From the NCBI GenBank assembly GCA_016210985.1, contig JACQTD010000058.1:1-40323 (forward strand): a stretch of 40,323 nt of DNA, read 5' to 3'. The notes below the pieces were generated by a model. It was not told where the DNA came from. It did not search any database and saw nothing but the letters and a program-made list of their open reading frames with translations. Below, one piece after another: positions 14,145 to 34,828 of the stretch. This stretch comes from Acidobacteriota bacterium. Lineage in GTDB: Bacteria; Acidobacteriota; Blastocatellia; HR10; JACQTD01. A program made the translations under genes and the position numbers. Position 1 is the stretch's first letter, and the number at the start of each line of letters is the position of its first letter.

Positions 14145-14234
14145 AAAGCCTATCGCGGAGCGACGCCGGAACAACGGCTTGTTCACGGGTAGCGAAACGT
14201 GGAGATAGATGTTAGGTTATCTTCATCGGTACGC

Positions 14235-14957
14235 ATGAAGATCTATGGACAGCACCGATTCCCCGGCCGCCTCTTTGTCGTCGAAGGCATCGACGGTTCG
14301 GGAAAATCCACCCAGCTATCCCTTCTCCAGCAATGGTTGGCTTCTGAAGGATATGGCACGTTTTTTAGTGAGTGGAACTCTTCCCCGCTCGTGAAGGACA
14401 CGACCCGCCGTGGAAAGCGGAAGCGCATGCTGACGCCCACCACGTTCAGCCTCATTCATGCGACGGACTTCGCCGACCGCACCGAACGGGAGATCATACC
14501 GCCGCTGAAGGCGGGTGCGCTGGTGCTGGCCGACCGTTACATCTACACCGCGTTCGCCCGGGATGTGGTCCGTGGAGTAGATCCGGGATGGGTACGGAAG
14601 CTCTATCAATTCGCCGTGAAGCCGACGATCGGGTTCTATTTCCAGGTTCCGCTCAAGGTCGCCATGAAGCGGATTCTCGGCGGCCGGGATGCCATCAAGT
14701 ATTACGAAGCCGGGATGGATCTCGACTTGAGCGAGGATATCGAAGAGAGTTTCAGGCTGTTTCAAGCGCGCATCATCGAAGAATATGAGAAAATGGTCGA
14801 GGAATTCGGACTGACGGTCATCGATGCCACCCGGTCCATCGAGGAGCAACAAAACGAGGTCCGCGCGCAAATCAAACGCAAGCTGATCGGCGTAAAGAAG
14901 GTAAGGGTACAGCGGTGGGTAAATTTGAGTTCTACGGTTCAGGGCTACCGGGGATAG
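14235..14957 (+). CDS. Thymidylate-kinase-like P-loop kinase, copy 1
   Basis: This is a P-loop kinase of the dTMP kinase fold, 240 residues from the ATG at 14235; a GTG at 14199 is an alternative start. Walker A is intact, GIDGSGKST at residues 18-26. The DR(Y/F) motif is ADRYIYTAFARD. The loop that in true Tmk reads TREPGG is SEWNSSP here, and ATDFADRTEREIIP replaces the usual lid approach. The protein is thus a divergent family member, not the housekeeping dTMP kinase. It overlaps the next gene, a clear paralogue, by 43 bases. The unit continues into Ppx/GppA and CHAD genes, which suggests a substrate tied to polyphosphate or nucleotide phosphate pools. Fold is certain; substrate is unknown. 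Confidence 0.82.
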   Translation: MKIYGQHRFPGRLFVVEGIDGSGKSTQLSLLQQWLASEGYGTFFSEWNSSPLVKDTTRRGKRKRMLTPTTFSLIHATDFADRTEREIIPPLKAGALVLADRYIYTAFARDVVRGVDPGWVRKLYQFAVKPTIGFYFQVPLKVAMKRILGGRDAIKYYEAGMDLDLSEDIEESFRLFQARIIEEYEKMVEEFGLTVIDATRSIEEQQNEVRAQIKRKLIGVKKVRVQRWVNLSSTVQGYRG

Positions 14958-15643
14958 ACCTCGAGGAACTTAGCGGCAAGCTTATCGTGCTCGAGGGCAC
15001 GGATGGCGTGGGTCGCTCGACACAAGTTTCGCTGTTAAGACCATGGCTCGAGCACTCCGGTCATGCGGTGATGGACACCGGCATGGCGCGATCCGCCCTC
15101 GCCGGCAAAGGCATTAAGCGCGCTAAGGAGGGTCACACGCTGGGCGGAATCGCGCTGAGCCTTTACTACGCCACGGACTTCGCCGACCGGCTGGAGAACG
15201 AAATGATCCCGGCGTTGCGGGCGGGCTTCATCGTGCTCACCGACCGTTACATATACTCGATGATCGCGCGTGCGATCGTCCGGGGAGCTTCACCGGAGTG
15301 GATCAAACAGGTTTACAGCTTCGCGCTGAAACCGGACGTCATTCTCTATCTCAGGATTTCCCTCGACGACCTGACCCCTCGCGTCCTGCATACCTCGGGG
15401 TTCGATTATTGGGAATCGGGCATGGATCTTCGACTCGGCGAGGATCTCTATGACAGCTTCGTCAGTTACCAGACCGGGCTCCTTCGCGAATTCGACCGGA
15501 TGGCTGAATCTTATGACTTTAAGATTATCGACGGTTCAGGTACGATTGAAGAGACGTTCGGCAAATTGCAGGAGGCGATCACGCCGTTGATCAGGACAAA
15601 GCCCATGTTGGATCTCGCTGCTGAACCGGCCGAAGTTCCGTAG
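14915..15643 (+). CDS. Thymidylate-kinase-like protein, copy 2, with altered Walker A
   Basis: This 242-residue paralogue of the preceding gene starts at a GTG (14915) inside it. The shared blocks YATDFADRLENEMIPAL, TDRYIYSMIARAIVRG and YSFALKPDVILYLR show the tandem duplication. The Walker A loop reads GTDGVGRST (residues 28-36), with the nearly invariant lysine replaced by arginine at position 34 (codon CGC at 15014-15016). Such a change usually lowers or abolishes phosphoryl transfer, so this copy may be a regulatory or structural partner of copy 1 in a heterodimer, as Tmk enzymes are dimers. It ends 6 bases before ppx, so the four or five genes form one unit. Confidence 0.82.
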   Translation: MGKFEFYGSGLPGIDLEELSGKLIVLEGTDGVGRSTQVSLLRPWLEHSGHAVMDTGMARSALAGKGIKRAKEGHTLGGIALSLYYATDFADRLENEMIPALRAGFIVLTDRYIYSMIARAIVRGASPEWIKQVYSFALKPDVILYLRISLDDLTPRVLHTSGFDYWESGMDLRLGEDLYDSFVSYQTGLLREFDRMAESYDFKIIDGSGTIEETFGKLQEAITPLIRTKPMLDLAAEPAEVP

Positions 15644-25003: not shown

Positions 25004-25039
25004 TTGACATTATTTGGTTATTTGGCTAAATTACCAAAT
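25004..25039 (+). promoter_or_regulatory. arsR promoter with 28-bp palindromic operator
   Basis: TTGACA (25004-25009), 17 bases, then TAAATT (25027-25032) make a near-consensus sigma-70 promoter. A 28-bp imperfect palindrome (25012-25039, 12 of 14 pairs matching) fills the spacer and the -10. Its core is ATTTGGCTAAAT (25020-25031), and its outer arms are ATTTGGT and ACCAAAT. Placement is that of an ArsR autoregulatory operator, which would block RNA polymerase until arsenite binds. A second copy of the core lies at 25403. Confidence 0.75.
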
Positions 25040-25047
25040 GGTTAATT

Positions 25048-25374
25048 ATGGAACGGAAACTCTTCAACCAGTACCAGGCACGCGCAAACGTGATCAAGGC
25101 ACTCGCGCACCCCACTCGTTTGTTCATTGTTGACGAGCTATCCAGGAGCGAGCGATGCGTTTGCGATTTGAGGGACATGGTGGGTGCCGACTTTTCGACC
25201 GTCTCCAAGCACTTATCAATATTAAAGAACGCGGGCATCGTGGACGCGGAAAAGCGCGGAGCACAGGTGATATATCGCTTGCGGATTCCATGCGTCCTCC
25301 ACTTTTTCGAATGCGTCAGTCAAATTATCGAGTCCGTGGCGAAAGAGCAGTTGCAACTCGTTGAGATTAGTTGA
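25048..25374 (+). CDS. arsR: ArsR-family arsenite-responsive repressor
   Basis: This 108-residue winged-helix repressor has the recognition helix in DFSTVSKHLSILKNAGIV. The metal site is the ArsR box ERCVCDL with Cys37 and Cys39; Cys82 and Cys89 (PCVLHFFEC) could supply the third thiolate for As(III). Binding would release DNA and open the ars genes. It is led by a strong promoter that carries a palindromic operator, so autoregulation is expected. A T-run (25379-25387) follows the stop without a strong hairpin. The next gene begins 151 bases later behind a second operator, so the two transcripts may be separately controlled. Confidence 0.92.
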   Translation: MERKLFNQYQARANVIKALAHPTRLFIVDELSRSERCVCDLRDMVGADFSTVSKHLSILKNAGIVDAEKRGAQVIYRLRIPCVLHFFECVSQIIESVAKEQLQLVEIS

Positions 25375-25414: not shown

Positions 25415-25525
25415 AACCATTGATGACCGAAATTCAGTCATTAAGGAGTGGAGCCTGGTTGGCACGAGAGACCAGTTCATCCACTACGTTCAGACGAATG
25501 TACGGGCCTACCTCGGAGGTGGCTG

Positions 25526-26170
25526 ATGGACAGCCTCGCGATCGGTGTAGTCTCCGCGCTCTGGCTGGGCATTCTAACCTCGATAAGTCCTTGCCCACTG
25601 GCAACCAATATTGCAGTGATGTCCTTCATCGGGAAAGACCTGTCTTCCCCGCAGCAAGTTTTTCTGACCGGAATTTTTTACACTCTTGGGAGAACCCTGG
25701 CCTACTCGGTCCTGGCGGCCTTGGTGATCGCCAGTGTCCTGGCCATCCCGGAGGTTTCGTTCTGGCTCGAGACCTACATGAACAAACTCCTCGGGCCGAT
25801 CCTGATGAGCGACCTGCCCGAAGCTGTCTTGGAGTTACTGCCGCGTCTGCGCGACCGGAACTTTACCCGGATCCTTCTCGTGACCTTGCCGGAGGCGACC
25901 CCCGTGCACGAGGCGGGGCGGTTGCAGCAGGATCTGCTGCGGGCAGGCATCGAGCCATTTGCCTGGGTCATCAACCAGAGCTTTTCCGGCGACGCATTCC
26001 GCGATCCGGCGCTGGTCGAGCGCGGAAGCCGCGAGTTGCCGTACATTGCTGAGGTAGGCGATCGATATAGTAGCCGCGTGGCTCTGATTCCGTGGAAGGC
26101 CGAGGCTCCGGTGGGGCCCGAGAGACTCAGAGGTCTCGCGACCAACTCGATTCTATTGGCCGAGGTGTAG
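25526..26170 (+). CDS. In-frame chimera: ArsG-type permease N-terminus fused to ArsA ATPase C-terminus
   Basis: The 214-residue product joins two unrelated pieces. Residues 1 to about 93 match the start of ArsG-family (DsbD-like) arsenical efflux permeases: membrane helices, [19 protein letters not shown], and [12 protein letters not shown] up to [10 protein letters not shown]. From about residue 94 (near 25805) the text is the end of an ArsA arsenite-pump ATPase: [41 protein letters not shown] and [22 protein letters not shown]. The remaining ArsG helices and all ArsA nucleotide-binding motifs are gone, so neither original activity should remain. A deletion through an arsG-...-arsA operon would explain it. 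GGAGG lies 6 bases before the ATG, so it is probably still translated. It ends 2 bases before acr3. Confidence 0.85.
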
Positions 26171-26172
26171 TC

Positions 26173-27252
26173 ATGAACACAGCCGTCGCTTCCCGCCTCT
26201 CGTTCCTGGACAGGTATCTAACGCTCTGGATTTTCTCCGCGATGATCGCAGGCGTCGCTGCGGGGTACCTGGTCCCCGGCGTCGTGCCGTTGCTGAACCG
26301 GTTTAATGTTGGAACCACTTCGATTCCGATCGCCATCGGACTGATCCTGATGATGTATCCTCCCTTGGCCAAGGTCAAGTATGAGGAGATGGGCCGGGTT
26401 TTTGGACGTCGCAGGGTACTCGCGCTCTCCCTGATCCAGAACTGGGTCGTCGGTCCCATCCTGATGTTCGGACTGGCTGTGACCTTCCTGCCAGACAAAC
26501 CTGAATACATGACCGGCCTGATTCTCATCGGTCTGGCGCGATGCATCGCCATGGTCATCGTCTGGAACGATCTGGCGCGGGGCGACCGCGAATACTGCGC
26601 GGGCCTGGTGGCCTTCAACTCGATCTTCCAGGTGTTGTTCTTCTCCATATACGCCTACTTCTTCCTAGCTGTATTACCGGGATGGTTTGGAATGACTGCG
26701 GTGCATGTGAACATTTCAATGGGAGATATCGCCGAAAGCGTCTTCATTTACCTCGGCATTCCCTTCATCGCCGGGTTTATCACGCGCTTCGCCCTCACCC
26801 GGGTCAAAGGCAAGGATTGGTATCAGACAAAGTTCATCCCGAGGATCAGCCCGATCACGCTGATCTCGCTGCTGTTCACGATCGTGGTGATGTTCTCGTT
26901 GAAGGGCGAAATGATCGTAGAGCTCCCGTTCGATGTGGTGCGGGTCGCCACACCCCTGGCTGTTTACTTCGTGCTGATGTTCCTTGCCTCCTTCTGGATG
27001 AGCAAGCGGGTCGGCGCAAACTACGCGGAGACCACGACGCTGTCGTTCACGGCGGCATCGAACAATTTTGAGCTGGCCATCGCCGTCGCAATCGCTACGT
27101 TTGGCATCCATAGTGGCGCCGCGTTCGCGACCGTCATCGGGCCACTGGTTGAAGTGCCGGTATTAATCTCGCTGGTAACCGTAGCGCTCAGATTTGAGAA
27201 GCGATACTTCTCCGCTGCGGGAGCCGTGGGGCCGGGTGTAGCACGTGCCTAG
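26173..27252 (+). CDS. acr3: Acr3-family arsenite efflux permease
   Basis: This 359-residue inner-membrane carrier exports arsenite using the proton gradient. About ten membrane helices are visible. The conserved cysteine lies in helix 4 ([18 protein letters not shown], near residue 123), and [21 protein letters not shown] matches the helix 9 motif with its essential glutamate. The ATG at 26173 follows GAGGTG by 5 bases, with the preceding stop in between. It is the one intact transport gene of the ars locus. Co-transcription with the chimera upstream is expected. Because ArsA is truncated, Acr3 here must work without an ATPase partner, as most Acr3 proteins do. Confidence 0.94.
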
Positions 27253-27645: not shown

Positions 27646-29445
27646 ATGTTCGCAATAAGATTCTATGTCATGCTCCTGATTTCCGCAGGTTTAACGCTCG
27701 TTGTCCATATTAGCTCGGCAACGGCCGGTCCACGCCGGGATGACCGCCGGGTGCAATCCTCAGAGACCTCCGAGCAAGCGGGTACCGGGAAGGAAAGTCT
27801 GAGAATGGACGATGGAGAGATTTCGACCAAGGGGCGGCCACGGCCGGAGGTCGAAATGGGTACGAAGCGTGATGCGGTGAGGTCCCGCTTAAATGATGCC
27901 GATTCCGATGACCTCGATCGGCTGAGAGAACAAATCGCCATCCAGGGAGCACGAATCGAGGAGCTGCGCCAGGCACTTGAAGAACAACGGCAGTTCATCT
28001 TGCTGAACCTGCAGTTCCTGCGGGAGCGGCTAGCGCCGAACGACCCGTCAATCCGGCTGCCCGAGGCAGATCCGGAAGGGCGATCATATCCCGGACAGAA
28101 TCGTACCGGTCTGGATGGGGTGCTTGCAGTCTCGGAGTCGGCGCCGTCGATCGAGCACGCGGCGAGCGTGTCATCCACTCCGTCACCAGGCCAGGCGGAA
28201 ACGCTCGCTAAGAAAGTTGAAGAGACCTCCAGGAATCTGGGCGGTTTCAAGTTCAGCGGCGACTTCCGCCTCCGCGCGGATATACAGTTACGCTCCGGCA
28301 ATGCCATTGGCCCGCCGCTGCAGAGCGCTCGCGCCCGGTACCGGCTGCGGCTGAACATCGAGAAGGAAATCGATCCCCGCTTCTCCTTCCGTCTTCAGCT
28401 GGCAACCGGCGCGCTTAATTCCGGCACGACCATGGACCAGGATTTTGCCGGCATGGTGGCCAGGCATCCCTTTTCGATTTCAGAGGCCTATGTGGACTTT
28501 CACCCGAACCCCAGACTCTCTCTCCGTGCGGGCCGGATGGAGGAAGTATTCGCCGATGGCATGAGATTCCTCTGGGACGACGATGTCCGCTTCAACGGGT
28601 TCCATCAGATCCTGACGATTCCCTTCAATTCGAGTCGATTCGGTGTCCATGCGCTCCAGTTCCGAGCCGGGGAGTACATTCTCAGCAATCCCAATATCGT
28701 GATTCTCCCGGCTTCCTCGCCGTTCGTACTCGCCGGCTACCAACCCGGACAAAAGGTGAGAGCCGCTAAGCTCTTTCATCCCGGTTTCGTCATCAAGGGG
28801 AATGTCAACGAACGATGGGGGCATCAATTCACGTCCGACATTCAGATCTTCCTGAATCCCAATCAGATCCAGCTGGCAACGCTGCCCAGCGGATTCCCGG
28901 TCCTGGTCAGTAACGCGCTGGGCATCGCACTATCGGGTCCGATCGGAGCGCGGGGGAACGGAACCACCACCGCTGATGGAGCCATCCTCAGCGCGCGGGA
29001 CTTCCAGATCGTACGGGCAGCCTATCGTCTGGAACGGAATGGGCTGATGTGGGGGAGCCGCGAAATGCCACTCTGGTTTGATTTGCAGGTTGCGCGAAAC
29101 ACCGGAACATCGAAATTGCGTGACGCGCTCTTGGCCTCGGTTAATCTCGGGGCTGTCAGGAAGTACGGTGACACTCGGTTTCTCTATCAGTTCGCGCTTA
29201 AGGATGCCAACTCACTTATTTCGCAGTTCACCGATGATGACATCGGTACCGGTATCGGGGTCAATGTGGCCACGCATGCACTGCGGTTTGATCTCGGTTT
29301 GACCCGGTTCCTGCAGTGGCAGAATCTGTTCTTCATTCAGAACGAACGCCGGGGCAACAACCCTGCGGAACAGTTTTTCGTCCCCCTGCAGAGAGAAGCC
29401 AAGACCACCTACAGGTATCTGGGTCAGCTGTTGTTCTCTTTTTAG
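27646..29445 (+). CDS. Putative outer-membrane porin (Porin_5-like) with N-terminal coiled coil
   Basis: This 599-residue outer-membrane protein starts at ATG 27646 after AGGAGG. It has a signal peptide (MFAIRFYVMLLISAGLTLVV), a charged segment, and a coiled coil at about 85-130 (DLDRLREQIAIQGARIEELR). A beta-barrel follows from about residue 200 (FKFSGDFRLRADIQLRSG) and ends LGQLLFSF with terminal Phe. The FSGDFRLR opening and the ALQFRAGEYILSNPN pattern suit the Porin_5 putative porin family. It lies just upstream of pstS, so passage of phosphate, and unavoidably arsenate, is plausible, but no direct sequence feature proves the substrate. Confidence 0.8.
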   Translation: MFAIRFYVMLLISAGLTLVVHISSATAGPRRDDRRVQSSETSEQAGTGKESLRMDDGEISTKGRPRPEVEMGTKRDAVRSRLNDADSDDLDRLREQIAIQGARIEELRQALEEQRQFILLNLQFLRERLAPNDPSIRLPEADPEGRSYPGQNRTGLDGVLAVSESAPSIEHAASVSSTPSPGQAETLAKKVEETSRNLGGFKFSGDFRLRADIQLRSGNAIGPPLQSARARYRLRLNIEKEIDPRFSFRLQLATGALNSGTTMDQDFAGMVARHPFSISEAYVDFHPNPRLSLRAGRMEEVFADGMRFLWDDDVRFNGFHQILTIPFNSSRFGVHALQFRAGEYILSNPNIVILPASSPFVLAGYQPGQKVRAAKLFHPGFVIKGNVNERWGHQFTSDIQIFLNPNQIQLATLPSGFPVLVSNALGIALSGPIGARGNGTTTADGAILSARDFQIVRAAYRLERNGLMWGSREMPLWFDLQVARNTGTSKLRDALLASVNLGAVRKYGDTRFLYQFALKDANSLISQFTDDDIGTGIGVNVATHALRFDLGLTRFLQWQNLFFIQNERRGNNPAEQFFVPLQREAKTTYRYLGQLLFSF

Positions 29446-29551
29446 CCGCCACTTCCGGTACAATGCCTTGTTCCTGCTAGGATTTGGATCACGTCAGGAG
29501 CGAAGGTTGGGTTGTTCAACCAGTGCGGTTATAGAGGGAGGGGATGGACTT

Positions 29552-29572
29552 GGATTTAACACGGATTTAACA
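29552..29572 (+). promoter_or_regulatory. Pho box upstream of pstS
   Basis: The ten-base unit GGATTTAACA occurs at 29552-29561 and again at 29563-29572, exactly 11 bases apart. A looser GTTAAT lies at 29585-29590. The TTTAACA core agrees with the TTAACA repeat found before the TonB receptor gene. This is the expected layout for PhoB binding ahead of pst genes. The site is 121 bases before the likely pstS start at 29693 and would make the ATG at 29600 part of the leader. Confidence 0.7.
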
Positions 29573-29692
29573 TTCCTCCGGTAGGTTAATTCATTCTAAG
29601 TGATTTTTTGTTTTCGCCTTTTTACATTTTCCACTAAGCCGCTGCCCGGTTGCGGTAGACTGATCAGTTTCCTTCGATTTGAGGCTTTTCCT

Positions 29693-30754
29693 GTGCGAAC
29701 TCAGCTTTCGATGCTCTTATTGTGTCTGCTCATCCTCTCCACTGGCGGGTGCGGAGGGACGAAGGACGGCGCGGAGGAAGTCTCGCTACAAGGCGCCGGC
29801 GCCACGTTTCCCTATCCGCTCTATTCCAAATGGATCAGTGAATACCACAAGGTCAATGCCCGGGTCCGCCTCGATTACCAGTCGATCGGCAGCGGGGGTG
29901 GAATCAAGCAGCTCACTGAACGGACGGTGGATTTCGGTGCCAGTGACGTTCCGATGACGGATGAACAGCTCCGGACGGCCGCGAAGGAAGTCCTTCACAT
30001 TCCGAGCGCCTTGGGAGCGGTCGCCGTCATTTACAATCTTCCGGGGGTCGCTTCGGGTCTCAAGATCACTTCCGATCTGCTGGCCGACATTTTTCTGGGA
30101 AAGATCACCAAGTGGAATCATCCAGGGATTTCCGCTCACAATCCGGGCGTGTCGATGCCGAATGCAGACATCCTCGTCGTTCATCGGACCGATGGCAGCG
30201 GCACGACCGCGGTCTTCGTGGATTATCTCAACAAGGTGAGCAGCGAGTGGGTAGGACGCGTGGGCAGAGGAACCTCCGTGAACTGGCCCGCGGGCATCGG
30301 CGGAAAGGGGAATGAGGGTGTGGCGGGCCAGGTCAAGCAGACGGCGGGTTCGATCGGATATGTGGAACTTGCATACGCGGAACAGAATCAAATCGCCTAT
30401 GCTGAAATCCGGAATCGGTCCGGTATTTTTCTCAAGCCTTCGGTGGCGAACATCACCGCGGCGGCGGCCAGTATGTCGGCGCAGGTTCCTGACGATTTGC
30501 GAGTCTCGATCACCGATGCCGAGGGACCTGCGGTCTATCCCATTTCGGCGCTGACCTACATCCTTGTTTTTCGCGAACAGGTCGATGAACAGAAGGGCAA
30601 GGCGGTGGGGGATTTCCTCTGGTGGGCGATTCATGATGGCCAAAAGTTCACCGGGCCGCTCCAGTACGCTCCGTTGCCCGATGACCTGGTGAAAAAGACC
30701 GAGACCAGGCTGAGACTGCTCTCCTTTAATAACCAGCCGCTCCTGCACCGCTGA
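29693..30754 (+). CDS. pstS: Phosphate ABC transporter, phosphate-binding protein PstS
   Basis: PstS captures phosphate outside the inner membrane for the PstCAB channel. From a GTG at 29693, 8 bases after GAGG, the product has 353 residues and a lipoprotein signal ending in LSTGGC; an ATG at 29711 is an alternative. Ligand motifs are GAGATFPYPLYSKW, the SIGSGGGIKQLTER phosphate loop, DFGASDVPMT and RTDGSGTTAVFVDYL, all typical of the family. The Pho box upstream predicts starvation control. It heads the gene set pstS-pstC-pstA-pstB-phoU-phoB, with the next start 4 bases after its stop. Confidence 0.96.
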   Translation: MRTQLSMLLLCLLILSTGGCGGTKDGAEEVSLQGAGATFPYPLYSKWISEYHKVNARVRLDYQSIGSGGGIKQLTERTVDFGASDVPMTDEQLRTAAKEVLHIPSALGAVAVIYNLPGVASGLKITSDLLADIFLGKITKWNHPGISAHNPGVSMPNADILVVHRTDGSGTTAVFVDYLNKVSSEWVGRVGRGTSVNWPAGIGGKGNEGVAGQVKQTAGSIGYVELAYAEQNQIAYAEIRNRSGIFLKPSVANITAAAASMSAQVPDDLRVSITDAEGPAVYPISALTYILVFREQVDEQKGKAVGDFLWWAIHDGQKFTGPLQYAPLPDDLVKKTETRLRLLSFNNQPLLHR

Positions 30755-30758
30755 ATTG

Positions 30759-31742
30759 ATGAGTTCTCTCGCGCTACGGGATAATGAACAGTCCGGGCTG
30801 ATGGCCCGCTGGTCGCGCAGCCGGCATCGTTGGAGCGACGTCCTGTTCCGGCGCCTCACGGCTTGCTTCGCACTGAGCATTCTGATCCTCCTCGTTTGGA
30901 TGCTGATCACCCTCGCGCTGAATGCCCGGCAGGCCCTCGCGCGATTCGGCTGGGGTTTTCTGTGGGGTCGGACCTGGGACCCTGTCAGGGAGCAGTTTGG
31001 AGCGCTGCCTTTTGTGTACGGTACCATCGTCTCATCGACGTTGGCGCTGTGCATCGCAGTACCTTTGAGTCTCGGTGTGGCCATTTTCCTGTCCGAGCAT
31101 GCTCCGCGCGGATGGGAAAACGTTGTGGCCTTCCTGGTGGATACGCTCGCGGCGATCCCGAGCGTGATCTACGGGCTTTGGGGAATCTTTATTCTCTCGC
31201 CGGCGTTGCGCAATTACATTGAGCCGTGGCTGGCGAGCACATTCGGGTTCCTTCCTTTGTTCCAAGGTCCGCCGTATGGAATCGGGATGTTGGCAGGGGG
31301 CATCATCCTCGCGATCATGGTCCTCCCGATCATCACGGCTGTTTCCCGCGATGTGCTGCAGGCCGTGCCTAATACACAGCGGGAGGCCGCGCTCTCCCTC
31401 GGCGCCACCCGCTGGGAGACGACCAGGGTGGTCCTGGCACATGCCCGTGCGGGACTCACTGGCGCGGTGATTTTGGGATTAGGCCGCGCGATCGGGGAGA
31501 CCATGGCGGTTACGATGGTGATCGGGAACCGGCCGGAGATCTCCTATTCACTTTTTGACCCTTCCTACACCATCGCCAGCGTGATCGCCAACGAATTCAA
31601 CGAGGCGACCTATGAGCTTTACGTGCAGGCGTTGATTGAGTTGGGCCTGATTCTCTTCCTGGTAACTTTAATCGTGAATGCGGTGGCACGACTTTTGGTC
31701 TGGAGCGTAACGAGAAGGACTCGAGAGGTGCAGCGGGTATGA
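30759..31742 (+). CDS. pstC: Phosphate ABC transporter permease PstC
   Basis: This is one of two inner-membrane subunits of the phosphate transporter, 327 residues with about six membrane helices. The cytoplasmic coupling loop that contacts PstB is REAALSLGATRWETTRVVLAHARAGLTGAVILGLGRAIGE, spanning the EAA motif. The N-terminal cytoplasmic segment (about 1-30) is basic. The start is the ATG at 30759, one codon after a TTG; it lies 4 bases past the pstS stop. Its stop overlaps pstA by four bases (ATGA), so expression is coupled. Confidence 0.96.
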   Translation: MSSLALRDNEQSGLMARWSRSRHRWSDVLFRRLTACFALSILILLVWMLITLALNARQALARFGWGFLWGRTWDPVREQFGALPFVYGTIVSSTLALCIAVPLSLGVAIFLSEHAPRGWENVVAFLVDTLAAIPSVIYGLWGIFILSPALRNYIEPWLASTFGFLPLFQGPPYGIGMLAGGIILAIMVLPIITAVSRDVLQAVPNTQREAALSLGATRWETTRVVLAHARAGLTGAVILGLGRAIGETMAVTMVIGNRPEISYSLFDPSYTIASVIANEFNEATYELYVQALIELGLILFLVTLIVNAVARLLVWSVTRRTREVQRV

Positions 31743-32590
31743 TCGACCCACTCCGTTACCGAAAGGTAGTCAATGGCGTCATGACGGGAGCGACGTTCAT
31801 TTGCGCGCTAGCTGTCCTCGCCATCCTTTTCGCGATCCTTGGATATATCGTCGCCCAAGGCATCGCCGCGCTGAATATCGACTTCCTGACCAAGTTGCCG
31901 AAACCGGTCGGCGAATCCGGTGGTGGGATCGCGCACGCCATTGTCGGATCGATGCTGCTGATCGGTATTGCCATCCTCCTGGGTCTGCCGTCAGGGATTC
32001 TTGCCGGGCTGTATCTGGCCGAGTTCGGTAAGAACAAACTCGGGCGATTCATCGAGTTCGTCACGGACATTCTGGCGGGTACGCCTTCGATCATCGTCGG
32101 CATTTTTGCCTATACCCTGATCGTCCTGCCGATGAAGCGGTTCTCCGCCTTTGCCGGGGGTGCGGCGCTCGCCCTCATCATGATCCCGATCATTACCCGG
32201 ACTACACAGGAGATCATCCAGCTCGTGCCGCAGACCTTACGGGAGGGGGCCCTGGCCCTGGGAGCGCCGCAGTGGCGCGTGACGCTCGGAGTCGTGCTGC
32301 GATCCGCGGCCGGCGGGGTGGCGACGGGCGTAATGCTCGCGATTGCCCGCGTCGCCGGCGAGACGGCGCCGCTGCTTTTTACCGCCCTGGGGAGCCACCA
32401 TTGGAGCACGGCCCTGGACCGCCCGGTTGCGTCGCTGACGGTCACGATTTACGATTACGCGAAGGCCCCGTATGATGACTGGCATGCCCAGGCTTGGGCA
32501 GGGGCACTGGTCCTGGTAATGATGATCGGCATGACCAATTTGGCGGTAAGGCTTTTCACCCACAGCCGATATTCAGGTACTCATCCATGA
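31739..32590 (+). CDS. pstA: Phosphate ABC transporter permease PstA
   Basis: This second membrane subunit has 283 residues and about six helices. The EAA loop for PstB is [47 protein letters not shown] in part, with the invariant glycine. [14 protein letters not shown] and [16 protein letters not shown] match other PstA proteins. It overlaps pstC and pstB by four bases on either side (ATGA at both joints), which fixes the starts and indicates tight translational coupling of the transporter subunits. Confidence 0.96.
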
Positions 32591-33423
32591 TGACCAAGGC
32601 GAAATTAGCTATGCCTGTAAACTTGCTGGAGAAGTCCACGGCTGAGCCGATGAAGCGGCCCGCCCTGGATAGCAAAGTCACGATCGAGCAACTGAATTTT
32701 TTCTACGGCCCGGTTCAGGTATTGTTCGACATATCGCTCACGATGCCCAGCCGGCGAGTCACCGCCTTCATCGGACCATCCGGATGCGGCAAATCGACCC
32801 TCCTGCGGACGCTCAATCGGATGAACGACATCATCCCGCACGCGCGTCTCCAGGGTCGCGTGAAGATCGATGGGACCGATATCTACCAGACCGGCATGGA
32901 TGTCGTGAGGCTCCGACAGCGCGTGGGAATGATCTTTCAGAAGTCCAATCCGTTTCCAAGATCGATTTTCGAGAATGTAGCCTATGGCCTGCGCATCAAC
33001 CAGCTGGTCCGGTCCCGGCGGGAGCTCGATGAGCGGGTGGAACAGGCGCTCCAACAAGCTGCGCTCTGGGACGAAGTGAAGGACCGGTTGAAGGAATCGG
33101 CCTTCGGGCTCTCCGGCGGGCAACAGCAGCGTCTCTGCATTGCCCGCGCGCTTGCCATCCGTCCCGATGTCATCCTAATGGACGAACCTGCCTCGGCCCT
33201 CGATCCGATTGCGACGCAGAAAATCGAAGAGCTCATCGTGCGACTGAAGGAGGAATATACGGTCGTCATTGTCACGCACAATATGCAACAGGCCGCCCGT
33301 GTCTCGGATCATACCGCCTTCTTCTGGATGGGCCGGCTTATTGAGTTTGATCCTACGGAGAAGATGTTCACCAAACCGGCACATCAGATGACGGAGGATT
33401 ACATCACCGGTAGGTTTGGCTGA
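32587..33423 (+). CDS. pstB: Phosphate ABC transporter ATP-binding protein PstB
   Basis: The cytoplasmic ATPase powers phosphate uptake. The ATG at 32587 gives 278 residues, overlapping the pstA stop. Walker A is GPSGCGKST (residues 63-71); the Q loop lies in [19 protein letters not shown], a PstB hallmark. The signature is LSGGQQQR, Walker [14 protein letters not shown], and the switch histidine is in [12 protein letters not shown]. About 25 residues of N-terminal extension precede the core, with no clear role. All catalytic motifs are intact. phoU follows 10 bases later with GAGGAG before its start. Confidence 0.97.
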
Positions 33424-33433
33424 GGAGTGATGT

Positions 33434-34099
33434 ATGCCTGAACACCGCTTAGTCGATCATGATTTGAACCGGTTGAGAGATAAGGTCCTGCTCATCGGCG
33501 GCGAGGCCGAGCGCGCCGTCGCCGAGGCCATGCAGGCTTTCATCTCGAGAGACAGTCAGCGAGCACGCGCCGTAGTCGATCATGACGACGCCATTGACGC
33601 CATCGAGTTGGAGATCGACGATTTGTGCATCGACGTGCTGGCCTTGAGGCCGCCCGTGGCCGGGGACCTGCGGTTCGTCATGACTTGCGCGCGGATCGCT
33701 CCGGTACTCGAACGCATCGCCGATCATGCCTGCAATGTGGCGCGGCATGCCCTGGCCCTGAACCTGGAGCCCCAGGTCAAGCCTTTCATCGATCTTCCGG
33801 AGATGGGGCGGCTCGCTGTCGAGATGGTACACGCCAGCATGGACGCGTTTGCCACGCGTGACGTGAGCCAGGCGAGAGCATTGATTCTCCGCGACCATCG
33901 CATCGATGACCTCTATAATCAGATTTTCCGGGAGCTCCTGACCTACATGATCGAGGACCCGCGGACGATCTCACGCGCCACACACCTGCTTTTTGCCGCC
34001 AAGCACCTCGAGCGCATCGCCGATTACGTGAAGAATGTCTGTGAGCAGGTTGTTTACATGGTGGAAGGGCGGGTCATCAAGCACGTCGGCATCGAATAG
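33434..34099 (+). CDS. phoU: Phosphate signalling regulator PhoU
   Basis: PhoU links PstB to PhoR and shuts the Pho response when phosphate is plentiful. The 221 residues form two tandem three-helix PhoU repeats. The metal-binding motif E/DxxxD appears in ERIADHACNVARHA (first repeat) and LERIADYVKNVCEQV (second repeat), the family hallmark. GAGGAG lies before the ATG. It sits between pstB and phoB, so the uptake and control genes share a transcript. Loss of the nearby phoR from this operon does not affect the assignment. Confidence 0.95.
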   Translation: MPEHRLVDHDLNRLRDKVLLIGGEAERAVAEAMQAFISRDSQRARAVVDHDDAIDAIELEIDDLCIDVLALRPPVAGDLRFVMTCARIAPVLERIADHACNVARHALALNLEPQVKPFIDLPEMGRLAVEMVHASMDAFATRDVSQARALILRDHRIDDLYNQIFRELLTYMIEDPRTISRATHLLFAAKHLERIADYVKNVCEQVVYMVEGRVIKHVGIE

Positions 34100-34108
34100 A
34101 AACCAACC

Positions 34109-34828
34109 GTGAAACGGCGGATCCTGATCATTGAAGACGACGCGGACATCGCCCGGTCGATTGCCTATAACCTGGAGCGCACGACGGGATTGAAGACCGA
34201 CTGGGCCGCGGATGGAGAGAGCGGCCTCGAGAAGGCCTTCGAAGTCCCTCCCGATCTGATCCTGCTCGATCTGAACCTGCCGCAGATGAATGGGGTGGAG
34301 ATCTGCCGCCGGCTCAGGCAGGAGAGCATGACGCGATTGATTCCGGTTCTCGTCCTGACGGCTCGTACCGGTGAGAATGACCGGGTCACTTGCCTCGACC
34401 TGGGGGCGGACGATTACATGGGAAAGCCGTTCAGTATGCGGGAGCTCGTGGCCCGAGTGCGGGCGCTCATCCGTCGATCCTATCCGGCTGAACAGGTTGC
34501 ACCTTACGATGACGGATTGTTGCGGGTCGATCATGAAAACTTCCAGGTGATTTCCGCGGGCCAGGAAGTGCGGCTCACCCGCAAGGAATTCGCTCTCTTC
34601 TGGCTGCTGGTGCAGAACCGGGGACGGGTGTTAACCCGCGACCTCCTGCTGGATCGCGTGTGGGGATTCAGCTACGGTGGAGAAACGCGGACGCTCGATG
34701 TCCACGTCCGGAGACTGCGGAAGAAGCTCGGAGAGCAATACAACTTCATCGAAACCGTAGTCGGCGTCGGCTACCGGTTTAACCCACCTAACTTGAAGGC
34801 CCTCTCCGCCGTCGGACTGTCGGAATAG
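34109..34828 (+). CDS. phoB: PhoB-type response regulator
   Basis: This OmpR/PhoB-family regulator has 239 residues. The receiver domain has the acidic pocket in IIEDDADI, the phosphorylated Asp54 in ILLDLNLPQ, and Lys106 in GADDYMGKPF. The C-terminal winged helix shows RLTRKEFALFWLLVQNRGRVLTRDLLLDRVWG and RTLDVHVRRLRKKLG. It starts with GTG 34109, 9 bases after the phoU stop. Pst and PhoU neighbours identify it as PhoB. Its probable sites are the 11-bp repeat arrays before pstS and the TonB receptor. The matching kinase is probably the phoR at 17708, on the other strand. Confidence 0.93.
   Translation: MKRRILIIEDDADIARSIAYNLERTTGLKTDWAADGESGLEKAFEVPPDLILLDLNLPQMNGVEICRRLRQESMTRLIPVLVLTARTGENDRVTCLDLGADDYMGKPFSMRELVARVRALIRRSYPAEQVAPYDDGLLRVDHENFQVISAGQEVRLTRKEFALFWLLVQNRGRVLTRDLLLDRVWGFSYGGETRTLDVHVRRLRKKLGEQYNFIETVVGVGYRFNPPNLKALSAVGLSE

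Follow-up and report, generated by a model that had tools for sequence, protein, structure and literature searches.

An open reading frame in the genome of an Acidobacteriota bacterium, in which the first half of arsG runs without interruption into the end of arsA, is very probably a deletion scar in a degraded arsenic operon. The frame lies directly before acr3 in a 40,323-nucleotide contig (GenBank assembly GCA_016210985.1, contig JACQTD010000058.1; 'the window' in what follows) of a draft genome of 3.85 Mb, 347 contigs and 79% completeness. We read the frame as a scar because relatives keep the two parent genes intact and separate, because the junction proved unique in our searches, because a second scar is present just upstream, and because another ars locus in the same genome, L115, is eroded as well. 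The original prediction had offered two readings, this one and a membrane-tethered ArsA-like domain; the first stands on these same grounds, whereas nothing positive speaks for the second: the ArsA part is devoid of nucleotide-binding motifs, and a conserved counterpart was not found. In order along the window, the features are these:

25020–25031, + strand: ArsR operator-like palindrome, ATTTGGCTAAAT, overlapping the arsR promoter at its –10 region
25048–25374, + strand: arsR, metalloregulator of 108 aa, 65% identical to the first arsR of the related locus L005
25403–25414, + strand: second ArsR operator-like palindrome, perfect, ATTTGGCCAAAT, just 3' of arsR
25449–25526, + strand: arsF remnant, last 24 codons and stop, LVGTRDQFIHYVQTNVRAYLGGG (stop), the gene start apparently removed by deletion 1
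25515–25519, + strand: predicted Shine-Dalgarno sequence GGAGG, inherited from arsG, 6 nt 5' of the hybrid ATG
25526–26170, + strand: arsG'-'arsA hybrid frame, 214 aa, no internal stop
25526–25804, + strand: ArsG residues 1–93, the first half of the permease, with the sole cysteine, C23, in SPCPLATN
25805–25807, + strand: junction codon 94, ATG (Met94), the site of deletion 2; parental overlap 1–3 nt, no repeat
25808–26170, + strand: ArsA C-terminal ~120 residues, matching TIGR04291 from position 465; no P-loops, no DTAPTGHT
26162–26167, + strand: predicted Shine-Dalgarno-like GAGGTG for acr3, inside the 3' end of the hybrid frame
26173–27252, + strand: acr3, intact arsenite efflux permease, 458 bits over the full profile, 80–85% identical to acidobacterial relatives

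The architecture first described—ArsG to residue 93, the end of ArsA from about residue 94, one open frame, a strong ribosome site, the nucleotide-binding part of ArsA lost—is borne out in every part. Hybrid residues 5–94 match positions 4–93 of the 225 in the NCBIfam ArsG profile NF040495 (E 6e-34, 117 bits), and residues 94–193 match positions 465–564 of the 565 in the ArsA profile TIGR04291 (E 6e-29, 101 bits). Because each half is partial, both scores fall far below the curated cut-offs, 200 bits for ArsG and 650 bits for ArsA, and by full-length profile match the hybrid belongs to neither family. Solved structures match the ArsA part only: residues 485–583 of the 594-residue ArsA in 9nbl, and residues 484–582 of the ArsA chain in 1f48. 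The ribosome site appears to be the ancestral arsG site, situated within the end of arsF, and the hybrid stop codon, TAG at 26168–26170, lies 2 nt from the ATG of acr3.

The hybrid was also said to lie between an ArsR operator and acr3, and so it does, if the palindromes of the window are what they resemble. Four matches to the palindrome occur in the window, counting both strands, against 0.38 expected. One overlaps the arsR promoter (TTGACA-N17-TAAATT, 25004–25032), the perfect one follows arsR, and ArsR may bind both. From the 3' end of arsR through this second palindrome, the sequence aligns with the corresponding stretch of L005 at a score that none of 1000 shuffles reached; there, the counterpart of the palindrome lies between arsR and the gene for an arsP-like permease. 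Pairs of palindromes flanking arsR, one before and one after, occur in L005, L028, L038 and L043, too, with a sequence that differs from locus to locus.

Between the second palindrome and the hybrid is a feature that the original prediction had overlooked: the tail of arsF, whose stop codon overlaps the start of the hybrid (TGATG) as it would overlap the start of arsG. Aligned with the corresponding end of ArsF in L005, WELVRSKADFFRYVQTNVKECLG, the remnant scores 64, compared with a maximum of 41 among 5000 shuffles, and it aligns also with the ArsF ends of L007, L030, L087, L094 and L095. Nothing else of arsF, beyond these last 24 codons, is present at the locus. The remnant thus points to a deletion separate from the one that formed the hybrid. 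In two other relatives, L003 and L004, arsR and arsR2 are ~500 bp apart, and this interval was considered as a further home for arsF or arsG remnants; it holds a different small open gene, instead.

Comparison with relatives, which had been proposed as a check, shows arsG and arsA intact, separate and in the same order in L005, a locus in a Bryobacterales MAG, as would be expected of the parents of a gene remnant. Its genes run in one direction: arsR, operator, permease, arsF, arsG, arsR2, arsD, arsA, acr3. (The permease distantly resembles the SaoE and SO_0444 families; we name it arsP-like here.) The window shares with this operon arsR, both operators, the arsF/arsG overlap, the start of arsG, the end of arsA, and acr3 in last place, and differs from it in having lost ~1.7 kb and ~2.9 kb. 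What it keeps, then, is arsR, both operators and the whole of acr3, along with three fragments: 24 codons from the end of arsF, the 5' half of arsG and the final fifth of arsA. The retained half of ArsG is 68% identical to that of L005 (68–70% with L087 included), and the retained end of ArsA 71% (70–75% among acidobacterial ArsA proteins generally). The acr3 of L005, in contrast, is of a different subtype, and that of the window is of the type found in L003, L004 and L007. For this reason we reconstruct the ancestor from several relatives rather than from one. L003 and L004, in Candidatus Solibacter MAGs, carry arsR, arsR2, arsD, arsA and acr3, the last 80% identical to the acr3 of the window.

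A search for the same junction in other genomes, also proposed at the outset, produced no second example. The fusion is absent from the best 80 loci obtained by scanning 84,980 species genomes; among 162 genomes of the class the sole match is the window's own genome; and of 396 genomes sampled from the phylum, 66 have a match, but apart from the window's own no match extends across the joint into both halves. Where ArsG or ArsA matches strongly in this sample, the open frame is ~230–420 aa or ~580–780 aa long, as whole genes would be. Among 2080 plasmid records with an arsG- or arsA-like match, none reaches 80% coverage of the query, and the literature searched holds no report of such an arsG-arsA hybrid. 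Many relatives did at first match query residues 31–212 within ~540 bp, as fusions might; on re-alignment, the N-terminal part of these matches proved to be a spurious extension into upstream ArsA. Like a gene remnant, then, the hybrid has no conserved counterpart in the genomes and plasmids searched.

We can suggest how the locus came about. Two inner segments would have been lost from an ancestral operon that ran arsR, operator, arsP-like permease, arsF, arsG, arsR2, arsD, arsA, acr3. Deletion 1 would have taken the permease gene together with all but the end of arsF; because it spared the operator, the second operator now precedes the hybrid and acr3. Deletion 2 would have taken the second half of arsG, arsR2, arsD and ~80% of arsA, fusing codon 93 of arsG to arsA in frame, an outcome that a random deletion has one chance in three of producing. 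Most likely, the working unit is now ArsR plus Acr3. Arsenite would free ArsR from both operators and so permit transcription of acr3, which would then be translated from the ribosome site within the 3' end of the hybrid frame. The hybrid might at most be a leader whose translation carries ribosomes on toward acr3, and the protein made from it is probably inert or broken down. If so, the locus is a clear snapshot of a large arsenic-resistance operon shrinking, by two inner deletions, to a minimal arsR-acr3 unit with acr3 left behind an ArsR operator. It is a warning, too, to compare partial-domain 'fusions' of this kind with intact relatives before taking them for new proteins.

The hybrid might be such a new protein nonetheless: half of ArsG as a membrane anchor, joined to an ArsA-derived cytoplasmic domain that aids Acr3. 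The frame is open and in phase, it has inherited a Shine-Dalgarno sequence, it occupies an operon position before acr3, and in some operons ArsA is believed to power Acr3 (PMC2963123). Nor is there any sign of relaxed constraint. Among conserved positions, 0 of 44 are changed in the ArsA part and 1 of 29 in the ArsG part, which is similar to the intact ArsR and Acr3; if the frame is neutral, the rule of three puts the share of such positions changed since the deletion below ~7%. Because it shows no decay, either the deletion is recent or the hybrid is still constrained, and an undecayed frame with good translation signals counts against a scar, although it fits a recent deletion as well as it fits continued selection. 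Against a functional protein stands the composition of the hybrid itself. ArsG (an aromatic aminobenzylarsenical efflux permease, CcdA/DsbD-like) has paired cysteine motifs, one per half, and relatives carry both SPCPLATN and SFCPVSA; the hybrid keeps the first, along with the start that overlaps arsF, but lacks residues 94–225 and with them SFCPVSA and the second cysteine. ArsA (the arsenical pump-driving ATPase) has P-loops and DTAPTGHT switch motifs in two domains, two of each in L005; the hybrid, though it adjoins acr3 as arsA does, has none. The first ~465 ArsA residues are gone: all of domain one and, in domain two, the stretches with the P-loop and the switch. According to a published analysis, ArsA is no longer catalytic once one of its two domains is lost (PMC2963123). 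The AlphaFold2 model, built from a thin alignment, is poor (mean pLDDT 59, the ArsA part mostly below 60), with helices where the ArsG residues are and nothing convincingly folded in the rest. With no second example in the genomes or plasmids searched, we give this possibility very little credence. A broader proposal, that the hybrid is retained for its product or for its translation—as an anchor whose ArsA tail modulates Acr3, or as a leader coupling acr3 to the former arsP-type operator—earns little more than that. Were function to prove true, the hybrid would be a new architecture; nothing here points that way.

A different concern is that the junctions are products of assembly, either a misjoin or a consensus drawn from variant strains, in a draft that has the look of a metagenome assembly. 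The draft state and incompleteness of the genome lend this some weight, as do abrupt truncations in two of its ars loci, but we consider it unlikely. At the joint, ArsG relatives read ...CCGATCCTGATCCTG or ...CCGATCCTGGTTCTG, ArsA relatives read ...ACCATGAGCGAC, and the window reads GGGCCGATCCTGATGAGCGACCTG; the parents have 1–3 nt in common there. In L005, arsG and arsA share no string above 12 nt, and the 12-nt one, which sits at another place in the genes, is too short for the usual k-mer misjoin. So short an overlap suits an illegitimate deletion, instead. Deletion between repeats was ruled out, no repeat being found across the junction. The missing pieces, moreover, are on no other contig: at the thresholds used, the 79%-complete assembly, which may lack 21% of the genome, yielded no other ArsG, full ArsA, ArsD, ArsF or L005-type permease. 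The window's other genes that can be assigned to families are mostly of full length, and even a junction borne by part of the population would be a genuine deletion.

Deletion as the source of the hybrid also accords with the state of L115, which occupies positions 404–1674 of contig C56 on the minus strand, with a divergent arsR at 1800–2240 on the plus strand. Its acr3 matches 47 of 327 profile positions and is cut after ~58 residues, and its arsC is cut to ~33 of 129 positions; its arsM is present and looks intact. In the window, the housekeeping and pst (phosphate-transport) genes that can be assigned to NCBIfam families match them mostly from end to end. In the stretches looked at, gene loss is concentrated in ars genes.

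Elsewhere in the window, a full-length transposase of the IS110 family lies near the start (1666–2796), and two adjoining reading frames at 14199–15643 match thymidylate kinase (TIGR00041), the second at positions 3–151 of 196 and under the cut-off. After the ars remnant, at 27646–34828, come a porin and the cluster pstS-pstC-pstA-pstB-phoU-phoB, an arrangement like that of arsenic/phosphate islands.
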